DNA from: Candidatus Rifleibacteriota bacterium
GTDB taxonomy: Bacteria > Riflebacteria > Ozemobacteria > Ozemobacterales > Ozemobacteraceae
Length of the DNA stretch: 7,162 bases
Assembly: GCA_022704885.1 (NCBI GenBank)
Contig: JAKJFO010000209.1
Span: forward strand, 1-7,162
Direction: 5' to 3'
Shown here: positions 1 through 7,162 of the stretch, in pieces
Position numbering within the stretch: position 1 is the stretch's first letter
Layout of the letters: every line of letters starts with the position of its first letter
Program-made: the position numbers and the translations under genes
Notes under the pieces: generated by a model
The model's database searches: none
What the model saw: the letters and a program-made list of their open reading frames with translations, nothing else
What the model was told of the DNA's origin: nothing

Positions 1-114
1 TTTGTGTCCAATAAAAAAAATCGGGCGCTTGAGCTTAAAATACCAATAATTGATGAGTTCGAGCTTGCCCGCATGCTGGAGATGAAAATTGAAGACGGAA
101 AATTCACGGGCTGA
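1..114 (+). CDS. C-terminal end of a BRCT-domain protein (partial; LigA-like or DnaQ-type exonuclease)
   Basis: Frame 1 is open from the window edge to TGA at 112-114 and gives the last 37 residues of a protein whose start lies outside the window. The stretch NRALELKIPIIDEFELARML resembles the final strand-helix of BRCT domains, where 'kA.elgIpii.E.eF..ml' is typical of the C-termini of NAD-dependent DNA ligase LigA and of BRCT-tailed DnaQ-family exonucleases. Which of these it belongs to cannot be told from so short a tail. A charged tail of about 12 residues follows the BRCT-like part. The last 26 bases overlap the next gene, which suggests co-transcription and translational coupling. The BRCT call is a pattern match by eye and is moderate at best. 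Confidence 0.5.
   Translation, partial: FVSNKKNRALELKIPIIDEFELARMLEMKIEDGKFTG
78..91 (+). promoter_or_regulatory. Ribosome binding site deciding the TTG start of the QueE-like gene
   Basis: GGAG at 78-81 lies seven bases before TTG 89-91, inside the coding end of the upstream gene. No ATG or GTG in frame before 167 has comparable support, and the family signature begins at about residue 12, so this start is preferred. Confidence 0.55.
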
Positions 115-841
115 AATCAGCGAAGTATTCGCTTCCATTCAGGGAGAAGGTCTTTCCCTCGGCACCATGCAGCTGTTTATTCGCTTTGGTCCGGCCAATA
201 GAGAATGCCGGGAGAGAGCTGCACCTGTTGAAGATAATAACGATCAATTCTGGTACAGAACCTTGCCCGGCACTCGCAATTTAAAAGCGAAGAATCCGAT
301 AACTGCCGGCAAACTATTCAACGATATCGCCAGATATTTCCCGTTGCAGCAGTTTTACTGCATCTCGATGATCGGCGAGGAACCTTTACGGCAGGCCAGC
401 TTCCTCAGCGCTTTTCTTCCTCTGCTCAAGCGTGCCGGCCTCAAAACATTCGCGCAGACAACCGCGCCGACAACCAGAGATTTTGCAGGATTGATCAGCA
501 TGTTCGATATGATCTGCCTGGATCTTGATTTATCACGCAGAGAGCGTCACTGCGAAAAAGAACTGAACAGGCTCGCCACAATTATAGAGATGACGGATCC
601 GGCAACAGCCTACCTGCGCCTGACCGTCGATGCCCATGAGAATCCGCACATTCTTCTCGCACAGCTCGAAAAACTGCCGATACATCGTCACACCCTGGTT
701 CTGCAACCCAAAATGACCGGTCTTTCCCATATCAGCGACTGGGATACCGGCACCATTCTGGCATGGATAAACCTGTTTGCGCCATTGTTTGCTCATATTC
801 GCTGGATACCGCAAGTGCATAAACTATTGCGCATTCCATAG
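89..841 (+). CDS. QueE-like protein with degenerate radical-SAM cluster motif
   Basis: Homologue (250 aa) of 7-carboxy-7-deazaguanine synthase QueE, the radical-SAM enzyme of queuosine and 7-deazapurine synthesis. Family landmarks are present in order: EVFASIQGEG (12-21, the QueE substrate-loop signature), RFGPANREC (32-40, where the cluster motif sits), a YRTLPG...NP segment (56-70) typical of one QueE subgroup, GEEP (96-99, in place of the SAM-binding GGEP), LVLQP (203-207) and PQVHKLL (241-247, the usual C-terminal signature). The CX3CX2C cluster motif is reduced to A36, C40 and R43, so two of three cysteines are gone. The usual ETNGT has become QTTAP (123-127) and the lysine of D-K has become D147. 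The frame is intact, so it is not an obvious pseudogene, but normal radical-SAM chemistry is not expected. Start is TTG at 89, with GGAG at 78-81 seven bases upstream. It overlaps the upstream gene by 26 bases. The first internal ATG (167) would delete SIQGEG. Confidence 0.8.
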   Translation: MKTENSRAEISEVFASIQGEGLSLGTMQLFIRFGPANRECRERAAPVEDNNDQFWYRTLPGTRNLKAKNPITAGKLFNDIARYFPLQQFYCISMIGEEPLRQASFLSAFLPLLKRAGLKTFAQTTAPTTRDFAGLISMFDMICLDLDLSRRERHCEKELNRLATIIEMTDPATAYLRLTVDAHENPHILLAQLEKLPIHRHTLVLQPKMTGLSHISDWDTGTILAWINLFAPLFAHIRWIPQVHKLLRIP

Positions 842-858
842 ATTTACGGTATTGTGTC

Positions 859-867
859 TGATATTAT
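859..867 (+). promoter_or_regulatory. Candidate extended -10 promoter before the DUF2225 gene
   Basis: TG at 859-860, one base, then TATTAT at 862-867 (five of six matches to TATAAT) gives a TGnTATAAT-type extended -10 element. It sits in the 61-base gap between the QueE-like and DUF2225 genes and would place a transcript start near 874, about 29 bases before the ATG. No good -35 box is seen at the usual spacing, which extended -10 promoters tolerate. Confidence 0.35.
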
Positions 868-902
868 GCAACCAAATAAAAGCTTGAGAAAACGGTGATA
901 AC

Positions 903-1877
903 ATGGCTTTAAACGAAAAACTCTTTCTACCAAAAGATATCGTCTGCCCAATCTGCGAAAAAGAATTCGTTCGCTATCTTCTGCGCAAAAAACAATTCAG
1001 CCTTGACAAACGCGACATCGACTACCGCCCGATTTATCTCGGCTCGATCAATCCACGATATTTCAATGTATGTGTCTGCCCGCACTGCTTCTTTTCTGCC
1101 GAAGACAAATATTTCTGCCCGCAGATGAATATCGAAGATATGCGGCGCAAGCAGCTTCTCGACAGCCATAAATCGCAATGGGAAGCGGCCAGCCGTGTGC
1201 GTGCGGCTTCCAGCGGCCAGCAGATCTGGAAGGATGTCGAAGCCGAAAAGCTGCGCGAACTGACCAATGCCAATATCACCATTCTGCGTCAGATTTCACC
1301 ACTTCTCAGAAAGGCAGCTGCAAGCATCATCGAAAAGGGTAAGCCATATAACGAGCTGCAGAGAGACGGCGACCTCGAAGCTGCCATCAGATCCTGGGAG
1401 CTGGCTGCCATCTGCCTCAAAGCCAGACGCGCCAATCACCGCCTGCTCGGCTACACCTATCTGAATGGCGCCTGGACCGCCAGAGACGCCTACCAGGGAA
1501 CAGAAGACCCGGCCCTGAAAGAAAGATTCAAGGCTTTTGAAGAAGCCTATCTTACCGAAGCCGTTACCTTTCTTGAAATTACCAACAAGGCCACCGGCAT
1601 CGACGATGCGTTCATGCCCGATGGCACGCGCATTCCCAAAGAAAATCTGCCGCAATCACGAGTGTTTGAAATAATGTACATTCTGGCCGGCGCCAACCGC
1701 CTGCTTGGCAAGATCGACGAAAGTAACCGCTTTCTCGAGCAGATCATCTATGGCAGTCAGAGTGCCCAGGGCATTATTCTCTGGTTTGTTAACCAGGCCC
1801 GAGAAATGCGCCAGGAAGCGACGACCCAGAAAAATCTACCAGTTCCACAGGATGAACCAGATGAAGAAGATTACTGA
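903..1877 (+). CDS. DUF2225 family zinc-ribbon protein with helical C-terminal region
   Basis: A 324-residue cytoplasmic protein with no signal peptide or membrane segment. The N-terminus fits the DUF2225 family: CPIC at 15-18, the KRDIDYRPIYLGSINPRYF segment at 36-54 and CPHC at 59-62 form a two-knuckle zinc ribbon, in which four cysteines can hold one zinc. From about residue 80 to 300 the sequence is almost all helical and TPR-like (for example, the DLEAAIRSWELAAICLKA segment), and it ends in an acidic tail DEPDEEDY. The function of the family is not established. It is widespread in bacteria, and a role in protein or nucleic-acid binding is only inferred from the zinc ribbon. Start ATG 903 has GGTGA at 894-898 just upstream. 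The last 17 bases overlap the TPR membrane protein, so the two are probably co-translated and may work together. Confidence 0.8.
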   Translation: MALNEKLFLPKDIVCPICEKEFVRYLLRKKQFSLDKRDIDYRPIYLGSINPRYFNVCVCPHCFFSAEDKYFCPQMNIEDMRRKQLLDSHKSQWEAASRVRAASSGQQIWKDVEAEKLRELTNANITILRQISPLLRKAAASIIEKGKPYNELQRDGDLEAAIRSWELAAICLKARRANHRLLGYTYLNGAWTARDAYQGTEDPALKERFKAFEEAYLTEAVTFLEITNKATGIDDAFMPDGTRIPKENLPQSRVFEIMYILAGANRLLGKIDESNRFLEQIIYGSQSAQGIILWFVNQAREMRQEATTQKNLPVPQDEPDEEDY

Positions 1878-2574
1878 CCTATATTTTCCGGCCCGAACCG
1901 GCGGAGTCGCCATTATACTGGTGATTCTTCTGCTCATCGCAGGCCTGGTTATCGCCGGAGTAATCTACAGTCAGGGTAGCGGGATGCAGCAGAAACAGGA
2001 AAAGCTGCTGGCACAGGGCTACGAACTGTTCAACGCAGGCAACCTTGAGAAAGCTTACCCGCTCTTCAAGGAAGCGCTCACTACGTTCACTTCGCCACTG
2101 GCATTTTATCGGCGTTTTGCCGCTGCAGAAAATCAGGTGACCCCTGATGAGATTCACGAAATTGCCGTCAGCGTTTCTCTGTCAATTGCCCATGAAAAGT
2201 TTTTCGATCTGCAGAGCGCTGACGAATGGGTCACGCGTGCCGAGGAAGACCTCACCTACCTGCCGGAAGGTGAACGGAAAAGTGACCTTACTGCCACAAT
2301 TGCTACGGCAAGAGCAGTTTCGAAACTTTGCAAAACCTACAATGAAGGCAATTACGAGCAGGCGATGAAAGACCTGCTCGAAATCGAAAAAATCTCGCAG
2401 CCTACCGACCAGGACTTTTTCATCTTCGAAATCCGCTTTCTGATCGCATGCGGCAAGGCCCTCAACGAACCGGCCATACTGAACCAGGCCCGTGAACTGC
2501 TGTTCTTCGCAACCACAGACGCCGGCATCGACAATGAGAAGACCCGCAGTCTGTGGGGCATTCTTACCAATTGA
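1861..2574 (+). CDS. Membrane-anchored TPR-repeat protein
   Basis: A 237-residue protein with a short basic N-terminus, one membrane helix (about 15-37, rich in I, L, V, A and G) and a soluble region outside the cytoplasm. TPR-like helix pairs are visible at about 47-76 (a GYELFNAGNLEKAYPLFKEA pattern) and 154-177 (KTYNEGNYEQAMKDLLEIE). The region between is also helical and charged. Such proteins usually act as scaffolds, but the partner is unknown. The reading frame is open back to 1705, inside the DUF2225 gene. ATG 1861 is chosen because AGGA at 1849-1852 lies eight bases ahead and the membrane helix then falls at the N-terminus; ATG 1852 is the alternative but lacks a binding site. It overlaps the DUF2225 gene by 17 bases and is followed 27 bases later by a strong terminator hairpin. 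Confidence 0.75.
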   Translation: MKKITDLYFPARTGGVAIILVILLLIAGLVIAGVIYSQGSGMQQKQEKLLAQGYELFNAGNLEKAYPLFKEALTTFTSPLAFYRRFAAAENQVTPDEIHEIAVSVSLSIAHEKFFDLQSADEWVTRAEEDLTYLPEGERKSDLTATIATARAVSKLCKTYNEGNYEQAMKDLLEIEKISQPTDQDFFIFEIRFLIACGKALNEPAILNQARELLFFATTDAGIDNEKTRSLWGILTN

Positions 2575-3329
2575 CCATCCGATACAACCCGCATCGAATT
2601 GAGAAGCAGGCCAGAAAATGGCCTGCTTCTTTTTCGGCCGACAGCCTCGATGAAGATATCAGACTGCGTTTCAGCATGTTGTGGAGCGATCACGCAATGG
2701 GATGGGCAGACCCGTTTGCCGTAAAACCCGCTATCGACGAGAACCTGCTCTATGAATACGGATTCGACTGCGCCAGAATTGCTGGCATCTGCGCACAGAA
2801 CCGTGTCTCTGCAGCCTCATTGCTTGAATCTTCGTTCAAATGGCTTTCGCGACTCGACTGGTTTCTGAACAACTCAGAGAAATCAGCCTTTGCAACTGAA
2901 CCATGGCTGGAAGCCGCTCTTCAGGGGCACGACCAGGTTATCTACCGTCACCGCCCCTACTGTGCCTTTGCGCTCGTGCGCAAGGCACTTCGCCTCGCAC
3001 CACCCGATAAAAACCTCGATCCTCTTCAGAAAAATCTTGTAATCAGCGCGGTTTATCCATTCTGCCCGCTCTGGGCTCGCTTCAATCTCTTAGATGAAAC
3101 GGGAATTCCTGCAGCTCTGCCAGCAATTGTCGAAGATTTTCAAGAGTTTGCCTGCGTCAGATTCTCACTGCCGGCAGGCGGCTGGCACTGGCAGGTCTTC
3201 GAACGTAAAAGCTTTTCGACCAGCCCTCAGACAGAGCTGCTCAAACTCAAGTGGGTAAAAAAAGCGGCAGGTAACAGATCACTAAGACTGGAACAAGCCA
3301 AAGAGGGTCTGAAAATATGTTTTGTCTGA
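2571..3329 (+). CDS. Hypothetical soluble protein upstream of comEA (start uncertain)
   Basis: I do not recognise this protein. It is rich in aromatic residues (several W), has no signal peptide or membrane helix, and shows no catalytic motif I can name. The frame is open from GTG 2553. TTG 2571 is given here because it forms a four-base TTGA overlap with the TPR stop. Neither start has a convincing ribosome binding site. A terminator hairpin at 2602-2634 lies inside this 5' part, so translation may instead begin at ATG 2676 or ATG 2697. The latter has GGAG at 2683-2686 ten bases ahead and would give 210 residues. Against a late start, codons between 2631 and 2697 look like normal coding sequence. 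The 3' end overlaps comEA by 13 bases, so it is likely co-expressed with comEA. Any role in DNA uptake is inferred from position only. Confidence 0.65.
   Translation: MTIRYNPHRIEKQARKWPASFSADSLDEDIRLRFSMLWSDHAMGWADPFAVKPAIDENLLYEYGFDCARIAGICAQNRVSAASLLESSFKWLSRLDWFLNNSEKSAFATEPWLEAALQGHDQVIYRHRPYCAFALVRKALRLAPPDKNLDPLQKNLVISAVYPFCPLWARFNLLDETGIPAALPAIVEDFQEFACVRFSLPAGGWHWQVFERKSFSTSPQTELLKLKWVKKAAGNRSLRLEQAKEGLKICFV
2602..2634 (+). terminator. Strong intrinsic terminator hairpin after the TPR gene
   Basis: A perfect 10-bp stem pairs GAAGCAGGCC (2603-2612) with GGCCTGCTTC (2620-2629). It extends by A2602-T2630 and A2613-T2619 to 12 bp around a GAAAA loop. A T5 run (2630-2634) follows at once. 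This is a textbook Rho-independent terminator, 27 bases after the TPR stop codon. It also lies inside the open frame of the next gene, so it may work as an attenuator if that gene starts upstream of it. Confidence 0.8.
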
Positions 3330-3748
3330 ACGAAACAAGTGCCCGAAATTTCAGAGCTCTGATATGCCTGCCGCTTCTTATTGGAATCTGGGCCGCGATG
3401 ACACCGCCAGCCGCGTTACATATTTCTCAGGCCTGGCCGGATGGGCCGGTCACTCTGGTGGTCGAACAGCAAAGTAATGATTACAGTTTGAACAGCATCG
3501 AAGAGCATCATGGAGTTTCGGCTGAACGCGTAATAATAAACGAGTCGACACATGAGCAGCTGATGACCTGCCCTGGCATCGGCTCCAAAACCGCCGCTCT
3601 GATCGTCAAAGAGCGCTCTTTTGCGAGGTTCCATGACTGGCGCGATCTGCACGACCGGGTAAAGGGAATGAGCCACATGAAAATCGAAAAGCTTCAGGAA
3701 GCTGGAGTCAGGCTGAACCGAGAGGAGCAGATAGAAGAAGGCAGATGA
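3317..3748 (+). CDS. comEA: ComEA-type helix-hairpin-helix DNA-binding protein, membrane anchored
   Basis: A 143-residue protein. A hydrophobic segment at about 13-29 is a signal anchor. A linker of about 40 residues leads to two helix-hairpin-helix motifs: LMTCPGIGSKTAALIVKER (82-100, with the PGIG hairpin) and the DRVKGMSHMKIEKLQEAG segment (113-130, with a KGMS hairpin). VIINESTHEQL (72-82) matches the 'vniNtAs.eeL' lead-in of ComEA. ComEA binds double-stranded DNA outside the inner membrane and hands it to ComEC during natural transformation. The SLBB domain of Firmicute ComEA is absent; the protein is short, as in Gram-negatives. ComEC lies 2.2 kb downstream, which supports the call. ATG 3317 has GAGGG at 3303-3307 nine bases ahead. 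It overlaps the upstream gene by 13 bases. HhH proteins of DNA repair are the alternative, but the membrane anchor argues against that. Confidence 0.82.
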   Translation: MFCLNETSARNFRALICLPLLIGIWAAMTPPAALHISQAWPDGPVTLVVEQQSNDYSLNSIEEHHGVSAERVIINESTHEQLMTCPGIGSKTAALIVKERSFARFHDWRDLHDRVKGMSHMKIEKLQEAGVRLNREEQIEEGR

Positions 3749-5991: not shown

Positions 5992-7162
5992 ATGGAAAAA
6001 TCCCAGAAGACCCCGGAAATCTCAGTTCCGCAGCTTGAAGCACTGCCGCTGTTCGTAGTCTTTTTTGCCATCGGCATTTCGACTGCAGAAATCTTTGACC
6101 GTAACACTGCCTGGCTCTTCTTTTCGCTGACGATTTTTACGCTGATGCTAAGTGTTCCAGAGTTTCTTCAGAGATATCGCTGGCATTTTCTGATGGTCGC
6201 AGCAGTCTGCGTCGGTATCTTCTATGCTCTGGTCAGAGTCCCGCCCGGCTATGACTTTGTCGAGCTTTTCAAACTAGACGGTACCAGGGGGCGGCTTACC
6301 GGCACCTTACGCGGCGAATACCGTATCGGGAGTAAAAACTCGGTCTCTTTCAAGATGGCTGATGCAGTATTCGAGTTCGATGAACAGCTGGTCAGCATAC
6401 CCATCGACGTAGACTGCAGAATCGCGGCGGCAGGCTTCATCCCGGAACCTGAACAAAAATATTCCTGCTCCGGCAGGTTTTCGGTCACCCAGGTTGCGCG
6501 CAATCCGGTTTTCAGCGGTTCAGACCTGCAATCTGAAAGCGCACTGCTCGACCCCGGCCGGGTCTCAGGCAAACTTCAGCTCATGATCAGAGACGGTCTG
6601 AAAATGGCTCTGCCAAAACGGCATGCCGCCATAGTCACCGGCTTTATACTTGGCGACACTTCTGGAATCAGTGTCGAAGACCGGCAACTTTTCAAAGAAA
6701 CCGGAATCAGTCATCTTCTGGCCGTATCCGGGCAACATCTGATGGTTCTGATAATTCTTATGGCGTCTATTTTTCACTGGCTGCGAATACCACCGATATC
6801 CCGCAGCATACTGACTGTCGCAATACTTGTGGTCTATGCAATGACTACTTCAGGCAGTCCTTCTGTGTGGCGGGCTCTGACCATGTATCTCTGCATTTCC
6901 GCCATTCTGCATCTCGAAGCTTCGCCGTCACCCATCAGACCTGTTGCCGTAGCCGCTCTGCTGCTGCTTCTGCATGATCCGCGCAACTTATCGAATGCTG
7001 CATTTCAGCTTAGTTTCACCGCTGTGATCGGCATTATTTATTTGAACCGGCCGATCGAAAAGCTTTTCAAAAAGATGTATTTTCCGACAAATCTGTCACG
7101 TTATCTCGCAGCCTCACTGGCAGCCAACGCAGCCACAATACCAATGGCTGCCCTGTTATTCG
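5992..7162 (+). CDS. comEC: ComEC/Rec2 family DNA-uptake channel (N-terminal 390 residues, runs off window)
   Basis: The frame is open from ATG 5992 to the end of the window; an in-frame TAG lies at 5974-5976 and there is no other start between. Membrane helices at about 17-90 lead into a soluble DUF4131-type domain (about 90-185). The Competence domain then begins: GFILGDTSGIS (217-227), HLLAVSGQH (241-249, the ComEC signature, usually HLLAVSGLH), the SGSPSVWRA motif (287-295) and DPRNLSNAAFQLSFTAV (329-345), with several membrane helices between. ComEC forms the inner-membrane pore that takes in single-stranded DNA during transformation. The C-terminal part, often with a metallo-beta-lactamase-like nuclease domain, is outside the window. 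No Shine-Dalgarno is visible, and an inverted repeat occupies its place. Four helix-forming segments and all the family motifs make the call secure. Confidence 0.93.
   Translation, partial: MEKSQKTPEISVPQLEALPLFVVFFAIGISTAEIFDRNTAWLFFSLTIFTLMLSVPEFLQRYRWHFLMVAAVCVGIFYALVRVPPGYDFVELFKLDGTRGRLTGTLRGEYRIGSKNSVSFKMADAVFEFDEQLVSIPIDVDCRIAAAGFIPEPEQKYSCSGRFSVTQVARNPVFSGSDLQSESALLDPGRVSGKLQLMIRDGLKMALPKRHAAIVTGFILGDTSGISVEDRQLFKETGISHLLAVSGQHLMVLIILMASIFHWLRIPPISRSILTVAILVVYAMTTSGSPSVWRALTMYLCISAILHLEASPSPIRPVAVAALLLLLHDPRNLSNAAFQLSFTAVIGIIYLNRPIEKLFKKMYFPTNLSRYLAASLAANAATIPMAALLF

Follow-up and report, generated by a model that had tools for sequence, protein, structure and literature searches.

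QueE, the 7-carboxy-7-deazaguanine (CDG) synthase represented by PDB entries 5tgs/5th5, 6nhl and 4njg, belongs to a well-studied radical SAM family, and QueL is likewise a radical SAM enzyme. In work on E. coli QueE (PMC11142719), Q13, E15 and R27 are assigned to the substrate, T40 to Mg and Q189 to SAM; mutants C31A and C35A still produced Q-tRNA, but C38A abolished it; Q13A, T40A, G94A, S136A and Q189A had negligible effects, E15A was unstable and R27A abolished Q. The same source describes a second role for E. coli QueE, which keeps catalysis: a role in cell division, independent of Q synthesis, that needs C31 and C35, and with a division-linked segment, E45-E51, that sets the protein apart from the QueE of B. 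subtilis and P. aeruginosa (PMC11142719). As to salvage, another account predicts that bacteria without preQ0/preQ1 synthesis, but with TGT, QueA and QueH or QueG, are preQ1/preQ0 salvagers; it names QPTR (YhhQ) as a known precursor transporter and QueL as the queuine lyase of queuosine salvage (PMC11130926).

Open-licence PMC papers, as far as their titles and abstract openings go, gave us no account of a QueE pseudoenzyme, and 'Rifleibacterium' had no match in open-licence PMC papers. Here we analysed a stretch of 7,162 nucleotides from a Candidatus Rifleibacteriota bacterium (the window), which encodes a QueE homologue lacking the CX3CX2C cluster motif and with the GGEP, ETNGT and DLK motifs of QueE altered. 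We propose, with a probability of roughly 0.55 for the explanation as a whole, that this gene encodes the Riflebacteria QueE linked to ligA, which has lost catalysis and is kept by selection as a pseudoenzyme, perhaps a ligand-binding one. The pseudoenzyme lineage appears to be real and selected; its function we infer. The features of the window are as follows.

1 to 114, forward strand: 3′ end of ligA (NAD-dependent DNA ligase), a window frame too short for a Pfam match
89 to 841, forward strand: gene of the proposed QueE-derived pseudoenzyme, 250 amino acids, TTG start, stop included, frame intact
134 to 151, forward strand: SIQGEG (residues 16-21), carrying Q18 and E20, the equivalents of the E. 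coli substrate residues Q13 and E15
191 to 244, forward strand: former iron-sulfur cluster loop (residues 35-52), with A36, C40 and R43; drifting, and modelled with pLDDT below 50 at residues 38-48
374 to 385, forward strand: altered SAM motif, GGEP to GEEP (residues 96-99), by alignment
455 to 469, forward strand: altered motif, ETNGT to QTTAP (residues 123-127), by alignment
521 to 529, forward strand: altered motif, DLK to DLD (residues 145-147), by alignment
689 to 838, forward strand: best-conserved stretch (residues 201-250), which holds Q206, H244, K245 and, at the C-terminus, P250
903 to 1877, forward strand: DUF2225 gene, a neighbour in 11 of 11 loci
1861 to 2574, forward strand: TPR-like gene, overlapping both its neighbours, matched in 10 of 11 loci (not L010)
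2553 to 3329, forward strand: gene of 258 amino acids (orf258) with no Pfam or NCBIfam match, adjoining comEA, matched in 11 of 11 loci; omega 0.218
3317 to 3748, forward strand: ComEA-like helix-hairpin-helix gene, matched in 11 of 11 loci
5992 to 7161, forward strand: comEC-like gene, cut by the window end, matched in 10 of 11 loci (not L009)

A preliminary description of this DNA, made from the letters alone, had called the frame at 89-841 a QueE homologue with altered motifs, and our analysis agrees: CX3CX2C is replaced by A36/C40/R43, and the other named motifs lie at the residues listed. Membership of the QueE family is borne out by the fold, and by common descent and a locus shared with canonical QueE, but not by curated family scores: the best QueE NCBIfam model for the protein gave 19.4 bits against its cut-off of 240 (QueE cut-offs exceed 200). 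A Pfam scan found no Radical_SAM (PF04055) match at E-values up to 1, and no other weighty Pfam or NCBIfam match was obtained. As a single sequence the protein had no match in the PDB; phmmer listed 109 proteins, the window protein included, and a family profile built from 93 of these matched the PDB QueE entries 5tgs (6e-18), 6nhl and 4njg. The AlphaFold model (pLDDT 89.4, pTM 0.87) finds its closest structural matches in QueE, followed by PFL-activating enzyme, and residues 38-48, in the former cluster loop, are its sole run of at least three residues with pLDDT below 50. QueL shares with the window protein a broad superfamily and a tie to precursor salvage but is catalytic, and as an identity it was rejected, since none of the 12 PDB entries matched by the family profile is named queuine lyase. 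The viral_contigs search gave no relatives of the window protein, the Rfam scan of the window no match, and the promoter/terminator scan of window positions 1-1000 a count not above that of shuffled sequence.

The surroundings of the gene were compared across the 11 GTDB genomes that yielded a relative (loci L001-L011). The order ligA-queE-DUF2225-comEA-comEC is common to cysteine-less and cysteine-complete QueE of Riflebacteria, with NlpC and NHL genes intervening, among the 11 loci and the window, only in the window and L001-L003. A LigA-like C-terminal frame lies upstream of queE in all 11 loci and belongs, by Pfam, to a full-length ligA in each of the three tested (L001, L006, L011). This shared locus establishes, as far as sequence comparison goes, that the window gene is the in-place orthologue after loss and not a divergent extra copy. 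In the window ligA overlaps the start of the queE-like gene by 26 nt; L001-L007 also have a TTG start, the overlap being 26 nt in six of them and 14 nt in L004, and L008-L011 differ. Such an overlap suggests translational coupling. For six relatives (P0012-P0017) the database gene calls begin at an internal ATG (window residue 27), so that SIQGEG is missed, perhaps because gene callers avoid a TTG inside ligA. The genomes of L005 and L007 are labelled Erysipelotrichia and Ca. Methylomirabilis; synteny and the DUF2225 tree put both loci among Riflebacteria, and these are probably mislabelled or mixed assemblies.

Among the phmmer-listed proteins the window protein and its 16 nearest relatives form one clade (clade A, support 100/100), and none of these 17 rows keeps the CX3CX2C motif: cysteine is found at the three cluster positions in 0/17, 15/16 and 0/16 clade-A rows, against 75/75 at each position in canonical rows. 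A local mutation or sequencing error, which the preliminary description had set against its own reading, is ruled out by a loss that spans the whole clade; the 16 closest relatives are also without the motif, complete forms occur in other clades only, and nine more distant proteins (group B) have the cluster loop largely deleted, positions 40 and 43 being gapped in 9/9 rows. The seven rows of group C (P0035, P0037, P0039, P0044, P0045, P0049 and P0051) fall in the same clade as A and B (A+B+C, 100/99) and also diverge from canonical QueE, but keep all three cysteines; what they have lost, in 7/7, are Q13 and the leading residues of ETNGT (E) and DLK (D). Group B alone is weak (57/33), and the fork uniting A and B has support 83/64. 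A further group of 11 proteins (D1, Ozemobacter type) keeps the cysteines and has Leu for the Mg-binding Thr in 11/11. The DUF2225 tree needs two changes to explain the cysteine-less loci (one change in 27% of bootstraps), the queE tree of the same 12 loci one change; both put the window beside Ca. Rifleibacterium amylolyticum. A second search, made with a profile, scored 7997 candidates and gave 2813 matches, 120 of which were listed; among these 120 were 60 new proteins, 58 with all three cysteines, one (P0110) short with the loop deleted and one (P0113) too short to span the motif.

Within clade A the kept and lost residues appear to divide largely by role, the substrate residues being kept and the cluster and SAM residues lost. 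Q18 and E20 are present in 11/11 rows (six rows that start later, and so miss the N-terminus, being excluded) and R32 in 17/17; H244 and K245 are invariant (17/17) and Q242 is found in 15/17. The window protein also retains the C-terminal QVHK and P250, and we take QxHK and P250 to lie near the substrate in QueE structures. By contrast, position 97 of the SAM motif is G in only 2/17 rows (the window reads GEEP), position 147 is K in 1/17, and the Mg-binding Thr (E. coli T40), which is A45 in the window, is T in 5/17, within the drifting loop. The division is imperfect, since Q206, equivalent to the E. coli SAM residue Q189, is invariant in all 17 rows. Moreover, because E15A is unstable and Q13A and Q189A are negligible in E. 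coli, R32 bears most weight for a retained pocket, and by the same analogy the retained substrate residues may be structural instead of ligand-binding.

The premise from which loss of activity was first argued, that all three cysteines hold the cluster, proves too simple, as C31A and C35A of E. coli QueE make Q-tRNA; we still infer inactivity, since the C38 position is gone here together with that of C31. No one change proves inactivity, as several single E. coli mutants are mild or unstable. The case is instead built from two absent cysteines, the C38 equivalent among them, from the loop deletion in group B and from the pathway partners missing in sister genomes, and judged on these the clade-A protein is almost certainly dead as a radical-SAM CDG synthase.

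For such a protein, ligand binding without chemistry would be the most likely role and a protein partner the main rival, although dependence of the non-catalytic role on a ligand is itself a tentative proposal. The rival holds that the selected pseudoenzyme works through protein-protein contacts, as a scaffold or regulator comparable with E. coli QueE acting on FtsZ, and keeps its pocket for folding only. It draws on the catalysis-independent role in E. coli and on the instability of E15A, by which pocket residues can be structural (both from PMC11142719), as well as on the C-terminal 50 residues being the most conserved part of the protein and on the 26-nt ligA overlap recurring in six of seven related loci. 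The E. coli division role had been offered earlier as a precedent for moonlighting without catalysis; that a catalysis-independent role exists is upheld, but the precedent transfers poorly, because the division effect was abolished in the C31A and C35A mutants (PMC11142719). Here the first of these cysteines is lost and the second, present in the window protein as C40, is not invariant, and the division-linked E45-E51 segment separates E. coli QueE from that of B. subtilis and P. aeruginosa. We consider this rival unlikely.

It is more improbable still that the protein remains an enzyme for some other chemistry, using a putative rebuilt barrel mouth (H183, E184, M209, H214, H244, K245) or a cluster bound through C40, C91 and C143. 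In its favour, 27 positions, for example H183, E184, M209 and L212, are fixed in clade A yet shared by no more than 20% of 25 canonical rows from Riflebacteria; measured against the same 25 rows the equivalent count is 9 in B and 14 in C, and D1 set against D2 gives 13, the groups differing in size. C91 and C143 are, in addition, invariant in the 16-row alignment. However, C40 is V in one clade row and deleted in another, the CX3CX2C spacing is absent from a loop modelled at pLDDT below 50, and the domain scans offered no other family match of substance.

The proposed pseudoenzyme would, very probably, be selected for its non-catalytic role. The queE-like gene is under purifying selection except in its old cluster loop. 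In four clade-A DNA sequences (window, L001, L002 and L003, all frames intact), NG86 dN/dS was 0.117-0.143 in four of six pairs, the remaining two being saturated, and the codon model gave an omega of 0.141, figures which high dS makes approximate. The neighbouring genes gave omegas of 0.025 (NlpC), 0.027 (DUF2225), 0.086 (TPR), 0.108 (NHL), 0.132 (comEC), 0.163 (comEA) and 0.218 (orf258). Compared with canonical Ozemobacteraceae queE, at 0.082, constraint on the window gene is strong but somewhat relaxed. By segment, residues 35-56 have a mean pN of 0.491 and pS of 0.662, so the old cluster loop drifts; pN is 0.094 in residues 1-34; and residues 201-250 have a mean pN of 0.049 and pS of 0.589 in the four DNA sequences, with a mean pairwise identity of 0.92 over 17 rows. 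The idea of a pseudoenzyme or repurposed fold maintained by selection, put forward in the preliminary description, is thus supported by clade-wide motif loss and low omega, and the decay that it had named as a contrary sign, a dN/dS near 1, is far from what we see. A decaying gene with a still unbroken frame might have been suspected from the relaxed omega, the drifting loop and a pathway not found in sister genomes, but is very improbable, and indeed already contradicted: the 16 relatives have long proteins at 60-75% identity, the four frames are intact, residues 201-250 are nearly unchanged while synonymous differences approach saturation, positions have been newly fixed, and the loss goes back to the origin of the clade.

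Queuosine pathway genes were sought in sister MAGs (G001-G005 and others) of unreported completeness. Across 11 genomes, QueC (E at most 4.1e-64) and QueD (E at most 4.1e-37) were present in G006 and G008-G011 and not found in G001-G005 and G007, G001-G005 being the five genomes with cysteine-less forms. Weak QueC matches of up to 29.4 bits, several above the Pfam cut-off, occurred in genomes otherwise without QueC, and the best ones were rejected as QueC: they are MnmA in G001, G002, G005 and G007 and asparagine synthase-like in G003; G004 had no QueC match, even weak. TGT, QueA and QueH were found in all 11 genomes, QueG in none of the 11, QueF in G006 only, and the YhhQ family in G001-G005 and G007 only. 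By the sequence-based prediction cited above, G001-G005 look like queuosine-precursor salvagers. No second full-length QueE was matched in G001-G005; a second, cysteine-complete QueE or queC/queD elsewhere in the genome had been envisaged at the outset, and the search of sister genomes G001-G003 found neither. That the protein is half of an active heteromeric CDG synthase, paired with a cysteine-complete QueE, can be given almost no credence, for although the protein retains the fold and several residues of the pocket, such a partner is contradicted in these sister genomes, which also have no QueD to feed the enzyme or QueC to use its product.

Phylum-wide, 13 of 39 genomes are without both QueC and QueD, six of them the ligA-QueE genomes G001-G005 and G007. 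In another, G013, a canonical QueE is interrupted by a contig end. The other six (G017, G022, G023, G024, G028 and G030) gave no full-length QueE match, G024 and G030 by a weak best E-value alone; YhhQ is present in four of them. In these genomes QueE would appear to have disappeared with the pathway, and in clade A QueE remained; if any of the six belong inside this lineage, the gene is dispensable there. YhhQ is not exclusive to pathway-less genomes phylum-wide, as it occurs together with QueC/QueD in five (G025, G026, G034-G036), and G007, without the pathway but with the cysteines, indicates that loss of the pathway and loss of the cysteines do not strictly go together.

We suggest that this lineage switched from its own preQ0 synthesis to an imported queuosine precursor, taken up by YhhQ and then used by TGT, QueA and QueH. 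Import would have removed the need for CDG synthesis, after which the portion of the site serving the [4Fe-4S] cluster and SAM could have decayed. Less surely, the substrate side of the barrel (Q18, E20 and R32, with H244, K245 and P250) and its remodelled mouth may still serve to bind a small pterin-type or 7-deazaguanine-type ligand, in which case the protein would be a non-catalytic sensor, carrier or regulator. As QueD, the maker of the QueE substrate, was not found, such a ligand would be a different molecule. A broader version of this idea, in which a radical SAM enzyme turned into a non-catalytic receptor for 7-deazaguanine or pterin in precursor-importing bacteria, seems to us rather doubtful; in that reading Riflebacteria would hold a stepwise series at one locus, from canonical (Ozemobacteraceae) through cysteine-complete but changed (D1, C) to cluster-less forms (A, B).

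The retained protein probably has a second job. The value of this apparent clade-wide, selected pseudoenzyme is that its cysteine-complete relatives at the matching locus serve as natural controls, and catalysis could be separated from other possible roles of QueE without making any mutant. It also carries a warning for annotation: relative P0007 is named 7-carboxy-7-deazaguanine synthase, a product that should not be assumed.

Some observations on the pathway stand apart from this argument. In G006 the ligA-linked QueE is cysteine-complete and a second QueE of another type lies in a queD-queE-queC-queF cluster on contig C114 (L071), so that the pathway was possibly regained there through transfer. 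G008-G011 have QueC, QueD, TGT, QueA and QueH without a QueF match, a gap at the preQ0 to preQ1 step. G001 encodes a second TGT (L069, 1107-3173) fused to a C-terminal Methyltransf_30 (MnmC-like) domain, the domain scan covering this copy only; TGT-like frames of about 690 amino acids are also present in G002, G003, G005, G006 and G007. Finally, TGT and YhhQ matches are found within 1 kb of each other in G001, G002, G003 and G028, a proximity which suggests a salvage unit.
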